Source of the DNA: Neorhizobium sp. SOG26
Lineage (GTDB): Bacteria > Pseudomonadota > Alphaproteobacteria > Rhizobiales > Rhizobiaceae
Length of the DNA: 64,000 nt
Direction of reading: 5' to 3'
Assembly: GCF_003491345.1 (NCBI RefSeq)
Contig: NZ_CP025512.1
Coordinates: 1,178,001 to 1,242,000 of the forward strand
Part shown: positions 25,014-49,697 of the stretch, in pieces
Position numbering within the stretch: the first letter of the stretch is position 1
Layout of the letters: each line of letters opens with the position of its first letter
Program-made: the position numbers and the translations under genes
Notes under the pieces: generated by a model
What the model saw: only the letters and a program-made list of their open reading frames with translations
Database searches by the model: none
Told to the model about the DNA's origin: nothing

Positions 25014-25157
25014 TTAGCGATAGGAACGGGCAGCAATGCTACGGATGTCGTAGCGGGTCAGGCCGATGTCGTTGAGCGCCTGGTTGGACAGGTTGCCCAG
25101 TTCGTTCATCGTGCGGCGGTAGCTGATCCAGTTCTTTGCAATGCGGAGCGGGTTCAT
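25014..25157 (-). CDS. DUF1127 microprotein, first copy
   Basis: A 47-residue basic protein read directly from the minus strand: MNPLRIAKNWISYRRTMNE, then LGNLSNQALNDIGLTRYDIR and a short basic end SIAARSYR. The pattern WxxYRRTxxELxxLxxxxLxDIGxxRxDIR defines DUF1127. Arg-rich DUF1127 proteins of alphaproteobacteria have been linked to RNA turnover and to phosphate and stress responses; the role of this one is unknown. The ribosome site is GAGGAAAC just upstream. It has its own promoter and terminator. Confidence 0.9.
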   Translation of the reverse strand: MNPLRIAKNWISYRRTMNELGNLSNQALNDIGLTRYDIRSIAARSYR

Positions 25158-25409: not shown

Positions 25410-25556
25410 TTAGAAGCCAACAGCCGAACGTGCAACGCGACGGATGTCAGCGCGGCCGATGCCGAGGTCCGAAAGCTCACGATCGCTCATGCGGCCGAGT
25501 TCGTTGATGGTTTCGCGGTACTTGCGCCAGTCGTTGATTTTCTTGGCAAAGTTCAT
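25410..25556 (-). CDS. DUF1127 microprotein, second copy
   Basis: A 48-residue basic protein on the minus strand: MNFAKKINDWRKYRETINE, LGRMSDRELSDLGIGRADIR and RVARSAVGF. It shares the DUF1127 pattern with the copy 253 bases downstream but only about half of the residues, so the duplication is old. The ribosome site AAGGAT lies 8 bases before the ATG. Function is unknown; the pair may respond to different conditions because each has its own terminator. Confidence 0.9.
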   Translation of the reverse strand: MNFAKKINDWRKYRETINELGRMSDRELSDLGIGRADIRRVARSAVGF

Positions 25557-25746: not shown

Positions 25747-25792
25747 AGAAACAACAACGCCCACCGGGGGAGGAGGTCCGGCGGGCGTCGTT
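25747..25792 (-). terminator. Rho-independent terminator hairpin of the small RNA
   Basis: The 15-bp stem 25792-25778 / 25767-25753 (two G-U pairs) followed by a U-rich tail. Its loop also carries the third anti-SD motif. Confidence 0.8.
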
Positions 25793-25868
25793 ATGTTGAC
25801 CGACGATTTGGGAGAGGAGGCTCGTCGGTCTTGTCGACAGGCGCTGGGAGGAGGGTGCGCATGTCGAA
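25747..25868 (-). ncRNA. Small RNA of the alpha-r14 (NfeR1-like) family with three anti-Shine-Dalgarno hairpins
   Basis: On the minus strand three consecutive hairpins each expose a CCUCC-type loop. Hairpin 1 (25867-25834): stem UCGACA/UGUCGA plus GCGC/GCGC with one mismatch, loop ACCCUCCUCCCA. Hairpin 2 (25830-25798): perfect 9-bp stem GACCGACGA/UCGUCGGUC, loop GCCUCCUCUCCCAAA. Hairpin 3 (25792-25753): 15-bp stem, loop ACCUCCUCCC, followed by UUGUUGUUUCU as terminator. Two pairs of hairpin 3 (25756-25789 and 25763-25782) are G-U on the minus strand but would be A-C mismatches on the plus strand, which fixes the strand. The length of about 122 and the three anti-SD loops match alpha-r14 RNAs such as Sinorhizobium NfeR1, which bind ribosome sites of transporter and other mRNAs. 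Ends are estimates. Confidence 0.85.
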
Positions 25869-26160
25869 TTCGGTTGTGCAGTTATGGTGAGCTTTCCACC
25901 ATGAACCGTCAGCGCCCCGCTTCGTTCCCGGCCCGACCTGCAGAATGTGCAATCAACCGAACGGGCCGGAGGTTGCAACACCCTTGGGCAAGTTATGCAG
26001 CGAAGGGGCAACTGCATATTGTTAGGTCAGGATCATATACATTAGATTTTAATTGAATGTTAACGGCGCCGGGCGCGGTGCGGTCAGCGACGCGGCATGA
26101 TGCCGATTTTCTGTTCGGATGATCCCGAAAATCACTGGCCTTAAGAAAGCTTCATTTTCC
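25869..26160. other. Intergenic region between small RNA and tRNA-Leu promoter
   Basis: About 290 bases with no supportable gene. It includes an AT-rich stretch at 26030-26070. The promoter of the minus-strand small RNA must lie at its left edge; no convincing -35/-10 pair could be picked by eye. Open frames at 25580-26056 (plus) and 25679-26017 (minus) cross the small RNA and have no coding features. Confidence 0.5.
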
Positions 26161-26241: not shown

Positions 26242-26326
<85 letters not shown>

Positions 26327-26466: not shown

Positions 26467-27957
26467 ATGCAGGTTACCGAAACGCTCGCTGAAGGGCTGA
26501 AGCGCGAAATTAAGGTCGTTATCCCCAAGCAGGAGATGGAGCAGGAGCTCAACGTTCGCCTCGCCGACGCGAAGGATAAGGTCCGCATCAATGGTTTCCG
26601 TCCGGGCAAGGTTCCGGTTGCACATCTGAAGAAGATGTACGGCAAGTCGATCATGGCCGACCTCGTCAACGAGATCGTCCGTGACCGTCCGGGCAAGATC
26701 CTGGCAGAGCGCGGCGAAAAGTCTGCGACGCAGCCGGCCATTTCGATGACCGAGGACGAGGCAGAAGCCGACAAGATCCTCAATGCACAGGCTGACTTCG
26801 AATTCACCCTGTCCTACGAAGTAATTCCGCCGATCGAGCTGCAGTCCACCGACGGCATCTCGGTTGTTCGCGAAGTCGTCGAAGTTTCCGACGAGGAAGT
26901 CAACGAGCAGATCGAAAAGATCGCCGAAAGCGCCCGCACCTTCGAAACGAAGGATGGCAAGGCTGAAAATGGCGACCGCGTCACCATGAACTACCTCGGC
27001 AAGGTTGACGGCGAAGCCTTTGATGGCGGCGCTGCTGAAGATGCCGAACTTGTTCTCGGCTCCGGCCGCTTTATCCCGGGCTTCGAAGACCAGCTGGTCG
27101 GCGTCAAGGCTGGCGACGAAAAGCAGATCACTGTCACGTTCCCGGCTGAATATCCGGCTGCGAACCTGGCCGGCAAGGAAGCCACCTTCGACATCACCGT
27201 CAAGGAAGTGGCTGCTCCGTCTGCTCTCGAAATCAACGATGAACTGGCTTCCAAGCTTGGTATCGAATCGGTTGATCGCCTGAAGGAAATCGTTCGCGGC
27301 CAGATCGAAAGCCAGTACGGCAACCTGACCCGCCAGAAGGTGAAGCGTCAGATCCTCGACCAGCTCGACGGCATGTACCAGTTCGAAACCCCGCAGAGCC
27401 TCGTCGACGCGGAATTTGAAAACATCTGGCGCCAGATCAACACCGATCTGCAGCAGTCGGGCAAGACCTTCGAAGATGAAGACACGACGGAAGAAGAAGC
27501 CCGTGCGGAATACCGCAAGCTGGCTGAGCGTCGCGTTCGTCTCGGCCTCGTTCTCTCCGAAATCGGCGAAAAGGCCGGCGTCGAAGTGACCGAAGAAGAA
27601 ATGCAGCGCGCACTTTACGCACAGCTGCAGCAGTTCCCGGGTCAGCAGAAGGAAATTCTCGACTTCTTCCGCAACACGCCTGGCGCTTCCGCTTCGCTGC
27701 GCGCACCGATCTTCGAAGAGAAGGTTGTCGACAAGCTGCTCTCCGAGATCAAGGTCACCGACAAGACCGTGAGCAAGGAAGAGCTGATGGCTGACGACGA
27801 GGAAGGCGCCGAAGCCGCCGCCGAAAAGCCTGCCAAGAAGAAGGCTGCGCCGAAGAAGGCCAAGGGCGAAGCTTCTGCAGAAGCTGCTGAAGGCGAAGAG
27901 GCTGCTCCGAAGAAGAAGGCAACGAAGAAGAAGGCTGCCGAAGAAAGCGCCGAATAA
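26467..27957 (+). CDS. tig: Trigger factor (ribosome-bound chaperone)
   Basis: A 496-residue protein with the N-terminal ribosome-binding domain ([20 protein letters not shown] and the GFRPGKVP loop that contacts L23), the FKBP-type prolyl isomerase domain (about residues 160-250, [10 protein letters not shown] and [12 protein letters not shown]) and the C-terminal chaperone arms. It receives nascent chains at the ribosome exit. After about residue 440 there is a Lys/Ala/Glu-rich tail ([20 protein letters not shown] and similar), longer than in E. coli trigger factor. I start at the ATG at 26467, with GAAGG upstream, over a TTG two codons earlier. A strong terminator follows. Confidence 0.95.
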
Positions 27958-49388: not shown

Positions 49389-49463
49389 TGGCACGCCCTA
49401 GGGGAGTCGAACCCCTCTTCCCAGAATGAAAATCTGGTGTCCTAACCGATAGACGAAGGGCGC
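49389..49463 (-). tRNA. tRNA-Glu (anticodon UUC), copy 1
   Basis: 75 bases with encoded CCA: acceptor GCGCCCT/AGGGCGT (first pair G-U), D-loop TCTATCGGTTAGGACA, anticodon stem CCAGA/TCTGG with loop TTTTCAT (anticodon TTC), T-arm AGGGGTTCGACTCCCCT. Same sequence as the copy at 49623-49697. Confidence 0.97.
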
Positions 49464-49622: not shown

Positions 49623-49697
49623 TGGCACGCCCTAGGGGAGTCGAACCCCTCTTCCCAGAATGAAAATCTGGTGTCCTAACCGATAGACGAAGGGCGC
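49623..49697 (-). tRNA. tRNA-Glu (anticodon UUC), copy 2
   Basis: Identical in sequence to copy 1, including the encoded CCA. It is separately transcribed from its own promoter. Confidence 0.97.

Follow-up and report, generated by a model that had tools for sequence, protein, structure and literature searches.

Small RNAs of the αr14 family are free transcripts of about 120 nt that act independently of Hfq, and homologues of its member NfeR1 are reported to share a conserved promoter with RpoD -35 and -10 elements and an upstream LTTR box, TGCA-N6-GCAT. NfeR1 of Sinorhizobium meliloti is described as a free RNA of 123 to 124 nt (PMC10746234; PMC2873474), with three redundant loops that stop translation by base pairing at ribosome-binding sites and with an LsrB box at -72 to -60 (PMC10746234). 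It has been equated with SmelC397 (PMC7143759), which is listed on the same strand as the 217-nt SmelC398, with the 3' ends of the two 275 nt apart (PMC2873474, Table 4). Among six S. meliloti copies, one was reported as reliably seen on Northern blots (PMC7143759). Two further systems show partial likenesses to the locus studied here. The "cuckoo" RNAs CcsR1-4 of the CIN1 locus of Rhodobacter sphaeroides are RNA genes beside a DUF1127 gene, CcaF1, on one strand, and are reported to share one transcript with it (PMC10253847). EcfG-type promoters are described for GsrN of Caulobacter and for the EcfG-dependent ReC64 of the Rhizobiaceae (PMC5869019; PMC3892343). GsrN and its putative homologues carry a C-rich loop (PMC5869019), a likeness to ar14 drawn by description and not by sequence; genes of the GsrN type differ in lying typically near the ecfG/phyR locus, although not in C. 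crescentus.

We analyzed a 64,000-nt stretch of the genome of Neorhizobium sp. SOG26 (the window, numbered from its first base), for which an αr14 RNA of the NfeR1 type had been predicted by inspection of the sequence. The Rfam ar14 covariance model (RF02344) matched the minus strand at exactly the predicted place and over its full length (model positions 1 to 123 of 123) with 92.7 bits (E 1.3e-15), which bears out the filing under αr14. This score exceeds the gathering score of the family (58.8 bits) by 33.9 bits, and a search of the whole genome with the same model again gave 92.7 bits. Two consensus pairs are nonstandard in the Rfam alignment of the window copy. Between the end of DUF1127 (25556) and the start of tRNA-Leu (26242) lie 685 bases, against 690 in the original prediction. 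When this gap was compared with Rfam at its cutoffs, no family except ar14 was found. The locus is therefore, with high confidence, a gene for a trans-acting small RNA of the αr14 family, about 120 nt long and transcribed leftward, with loops predicted to block the ribosome-binding sites of mRNAs. The window copy is a real and well-conserved member of the family and as a finding it is ordinary. The αr14 family is defined on the RNA, and the promoter tests described below concern control rather than membership.

Table 1. Features of the αr14 locus and its surroundings in window coordinates
Feature	Position	Strand	Basis
αr14 small RNA gene	25752..25872	-	Rfam RF02344 full-length match
Hairpin 1, unpaired loop CCCUCCUCCC (anti-Shine-Dalgarno)	25834..25867	-	Fold and Rfam alignment
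Hairpin 2, unpaired loop CCUCCUCUCCC	25798..25830	-	Fold and alignment
Hairpin 3, unpaired loop CCUCCUCCC; stem presumed to act as a terminator, U tail interrupted	25751..25794	-	Fold; terminator role presumed
GGAAC-N16-GGTT, candidate general-stress (EcfG/RpoE2-type) promoter	25904..25928	-	Pattern
TGCACATTCTGCAG, candidate LsrB-like box (TGCA-N6-GCAT, one mismatch) at -79	25938..25951	-	Pattern
Possible remnant of a control region found in relatives, with a displaced TGCA half-site and a GCAT half-site followed after 20 nt by TTGCA	25974..26017	-	By eye
DUF1127 small protein gene, next on the RNA's strand	25410..25556	-	Pfam PF06568, E 8.2e-16
Second DUF1127 small protein gene	25014..25157	-	Pfam PF06568, E 9.8e-14
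tRNA-Leu, neighbor	26242..26326	+	ARAGORN, Rfam
tig (trigger factor), synteny anchor	26467..27957	+	Pfam Trigger_N, FKBP_C, Trigger_C

The minus strand of segment 25868-25747 was predicted to fold at -60.8 kcal/mol (z -9.36), and none of 200 shuffles (mean -29.7, standard deviation 3.3 kcal/mol) gave a value as low. The plus strand of the same segment folds less well (z -3.71), which fits leftward transcription and, with the minus-strand Rfam match, agrees with the direction proposed earlier. Three consecutive hairpins form where they had been predicted, each with an unpaired anti-Shine-Dalgarno motif, and their loops read as originally given. The last stem is also present, but with 17 bp in the predicted structure rather than the claimed 15 bp, and the tail behind it is U-rich but interrupted (GUUGUUGUUUCU). 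The terminator scan, which listed none on the RNA strand, allows loops of 3 to 8 bases only and is thus blind to hairpin 3 with its 10-base loop. Loop 2 of the window copy is a variant; in the 20 remaining members of the alignment this position reads CUCCUCCUCCC or a similar sequence.

Covariation was measured in an alignment of 21 members, namely, the window copy, three sister copies from the same genome, and 17 of the 29 loci L009-L037 from other genomes of the genus. The stems vary in sequence yet are kept paired. Pairing was found in 98.3% of cells, compared with 85.3% in shuffled and 32 to 46% in slid alignments, and 20 of the 28 pairs have changes on both sides (0 of 500 shuffles as high), with the qualification that the alignment under test also supplied the consensus structure, so that the test favors it.

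The RNA of the window copy would be transcribed leftward as a molecule of about 120 nt, or longer if the start lies further upstream, and each of its three hairpins displays a C-rich anti-Shine-Dalgarno loop. Most likely, a loop would pair with the ribosome-binding sites of several mRNAs, whose translation would be blocked and which would thereby be silenced, as others have shown for NfeR1. The duplex energies of loops 1 to 3 with the ntrB start of the source genome were -18.7, -17.4, and -15.2 kcal/mol; these values were obtained without a control and the site reads only GGAAGG, so they decide nothing.

The source genome (4.56 Mb, three contigs) contains four ar14 genes above the cutoff, with 109.2, 106.5, 105.8, and 92.7 bits, the window copy being the lowest, and four further matches below it. 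Among the 57 genomes of the genus that were searched, the source genome being one of them, none is without a match above the cutoff. At E 0.001 or better, the number of matches per genome is three to nine, compared with none in any of 14 control genomes. Of the three sister copies, L001 has, among the genes tested, a 3'-5' exonuclease and a malate/lactate dehydrogenase as neighbors, L002 a tRNA-editing protein and a cold-shock protein, and L003, on another contig, a CrtC-domain protein. All three copies have a box. That of L002 is an exact TGCA-N6-GCAT at -66, which, judged by its leader, is the NfeR1 layout; that of L001 has one mismatch at -67, and that of L003 has one mismatch at -100 and was found with a slightly looser pattern. 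L003 also has an extra anti-Shine-Dalgarno hairpin in front (1465-1625 of that locus), giving four hairpins instead of three, a form that recalls the four-loop SmelA099 family (PMC3927594).

The neighborhood of the window copy was compared in a tig-anchored set of 80 named rhizobial loci, the best 80 of 322 relatives. RNAs at tig loci were called at 38 bits or more with R1, a model derived from the alignment of 21 members; its matches are circular for the loci from which it was built (the window, the sister copies, and 17 of L009-L037). In 72 of these best 80 of 322, tig is preceded by an ar14 gene on the opposite strand, whereas R1 found none at tig in L054, L055, L077, L081, L095, L100, L104, and L117, with L081 having only 171 bases upstream. 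Seven of these eight loci (all but L081) nevertheless have DUF1127 relatives. L100 and L117 are both named Agrobacterium, and L100 has one DUF1127 relative on the other strand. The distance from ar14 to tig, measured in 71 loci, is below 900 bases in 39, between 900 and 1300 bases in 3, and greater in 29, which therefore have other DNA in between. A DUF1127 relative (tblastn) lies downstream on the RNA's strand in 72 of 72 loci from the best 80 of 322, at 177 to 420 nt (median 223), and a tRNA was found ahead of tig in all nine loci examined. The window also carries two tRNA-Glu (TTC) genes as a close pair on the minus strand (49389-49463 and 49623-49697) with equal Rfam scores. For the genus set, which overlaps the named set in that some named loci come from the same genomes, ar14 was found at tig in 27 of 30 and 26 of 27 loci (53 of 57); these loci cover about 1.5 to 3 kb upstream, so that a more distant ar14 would be missed. 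The tig/ar14/DUF1127 neighborhood thus recurs widely among the rhizobial genomes examined, and copies can be compared by place. The association of DUF1127 genes with CcsR-like RNAs has already been described as the CIN1 locus (PMC10253847), and a linkage of DUF1127 to small RNA genes is therefore not new. Compared by description only, the two differ in gene order, with the DUF1127 gene first and cotranscribed in Rhodobacter and the RNA first at the window.

The label "NfeR1 type" holds for the kind of RNA, but S. meliloti has two counterparts of this copy, of which NfeR1 is one. Upstream of tig, S. meliloti 4H41 carries two ar14 copies in tandem, scoring 108.7 and 107.8 bits (above the Rfam cutoff), that are 270 nt apart and match the published SmelC398/NfeR1 pair in strand and nearly in spacing. 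The far, NfeR1-like copy has an exact LsrB box, TGCACCATTTGCAT, at -70, which fits the published position of the NfeR1 box. In the tig-side copy, the box is TGCG-N6-GCAT and lies at -163, with TTGCACTGCA at -133. From spacing and strand, not from the Rm1021 sequence, we infer that this copy is SmelC398, the greater length of which fits a leader of about 90 nt. By place, the window copy corresponds to the tandem pair and not to NfeR1 alone. It is a single copy with the shared neighborhood and with a one-mismatch box at -79, and it is not assignable to one member of the pair. With NfeR1 and RF02344 it shares the three anti-Shine-Dalgarno hairpins, the length of about 120 nt, the place upstream of tig, and the leftward orientation relative to tig. 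It differs from NfeR1 in its loop 2 variant and in its box, which is exact and at -70 in the 4H41 copy. Moreover, control by NtrC and LsrB is experimental for NfeR1 and would be putative for the window copy. With SmelC398, the presumed tig-side member of the pair, it shares the neighborhood. Many single-copy relatives share with SmelC398 a box at about -163 and TTGCACTGCA at about -133, a layout that would give a long leader and that is lacking from the window copy. L038, L042, L044, L049, and others have about 100 nt with hairpin-like repeats between the presumed promoter and ar14; such a leader would make the RNA about 220 nt long, like SmelC398.

The switch of the window copy seems to differ from that of most relatives. 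Among 53 genus loci, the window included, a TTGCACTGCA-type element is present in 43, a relaxed box in 39 (the window's box at -79 among them), and both at a spacing of 30 nt in 32. This arrangement of the box, 30 nt, and TTGCAC is missing from the window copy. A pattern search of its leader found no exact TGCA-N6-GCAT box and no TTGCACTGCA element, and no promoter on the RNA's strand came out of a standard sigma-70 scan. The possible remnant listed in Table 1 was judged against relatives with the box and the TTGCAC element 30 nt apart; its GCAT half-site precedes TTGCA by 20 nt, as it does in them, while the other half-site is displaced. The leader offers two candidates for control, both weak: the LsrB-like box at -79 and GGAAC-N16-GGTT.

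The first candidate would make the promoter a weakened form of that of NfeR1, with an LsrB-type activator at TGCACATTCTGCAG, a -10 element CATAAC at -14, and a start at about 25874, which we regard as possible but not probable. The box lies near those of the NfeR1-like copy of 4H41 (-70), of L001, and of L002. Such a box would arise by chance with a probability of 3.9% somewhere in 240 nt and of 0.5% within -85 to -60, a range that was chosen after the site had been seen. CATAAC matches four of the six -10 bases. However, its only -35-like partner, CTGACG, lies at a distance of 20 nt, which exceeds the usual sigma-70 spacing.

General-stress control is somewhat unlikely. An EcfG-type sigma factor would act at the GGAAC motif, with a start at about 25897. 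The chance of GGAAC-N16-GGTT in the 220-nt leader of the window is 0.5%, and the motif departs by one mismatch, GGTT instead of CGTT, from the R. etli EcfG1 consensus GGAAC-N16-CGTT as published (PMC3892343). The source genome has NepR, one of the core genes of the general stress response. GGAAC-N16/17-NGTT occurs on the RNA strand in 13 of 73 leaders (the window and the 72 named loci from the best 80 of 322 relatives) versus 1 of 73 on the other strand, although the loci share ancestry and the 13 leaders are not 13 events. Markov resampling gave an expectation of 0.24 (maximum of 2 in 500 runs), and random 220-nt stretches of the same loci have the motif in 0.58% of cases (85 of 14600). In seven of the 13, which are closely related loci, the usual elements are present alongside the motif, and the motif overlaps a part of the leader that looks like a hairpin; this counts against general-stress control. 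The motif of L112, at -187, looks unrelated. In six loci neither of the usual elements is present: L138, L142 (same motif as L059), L164 (L063), L166 (L069), L102, and L130 (L048). All but L130 carry the GGAAC motif at -32 to -35, from which transcription would begin at about the first base of the RNA, and the spacers are only 34% identical; one of the five has CGTT. This group was picked after looking, and several promoter types were tried. We also considered GGAAC as an ancestral element that the window copy would share with its closest relatives. When these are aligned, the GGAAC sites do not fall opposite each other, and homology is therefore not claimed. Genome-wide enrichment was uninformative, as the strict motif was no commoner than its backward control (95 versus 116).

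It is unlikely that the window copy is a degenerate, unexpressed paralogue with a decayed promoter, the function being carried by the other three copies. Such decay would account for the missing box and TTGCAC layout, given that all three sister copies have a box, and for the lowest score of the four, the altered loop 2, and the lack of a sigma-70-like pair with the usual spacing adjoining the RNA. Nevertheless, candidate promoter elements exist, and the three stems and their loops are intact with a very strong fold despite the two nonstandard consensus pairs. With an unclear promoter, and with only one of six S. meliloti copies reliably detected, the window copy may be silent.

It is very improbable that the RNA serves the DUF1127 gene as a 5' leader or attenuator: the constant downstream DUF1127 gene in the best 80 of 322 set and the common transcript in Rhodobacter would suit this, but hairpin 3 is a terminator-like stem ahead of the gene, DUF1127 relatives occur at seven tig loci where ar14 was not found, the other three copies have other neighbors among the genes tested, and S. 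meliloti NfeR1 is described as a free RNA.

An αr14 small RNA, rather than such a leader, is thus the reading we retain, and what appears to separate αr14 copies, as these comparisons suggest, is their promoters more than the RNA. Tentatively, ar14 at tig may have been rewired from an LsrB/NtrC promoter to EcfG in a Pseudorhizobium-like side clade of the genus, perhaps including the source species, although we consider this doubtful. Activation by RpoE2 has been reported for seven small RNAs of S. meliloti (PMC6180224); an αr14 RNA may be among them, so that a link between EcfG and αr14 may already be in print. The possible promoter change is the one point about the window copy worth following. 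If it is true, the same RNA directed against ribosome-binding sites would answer a different signal in related bacteria.
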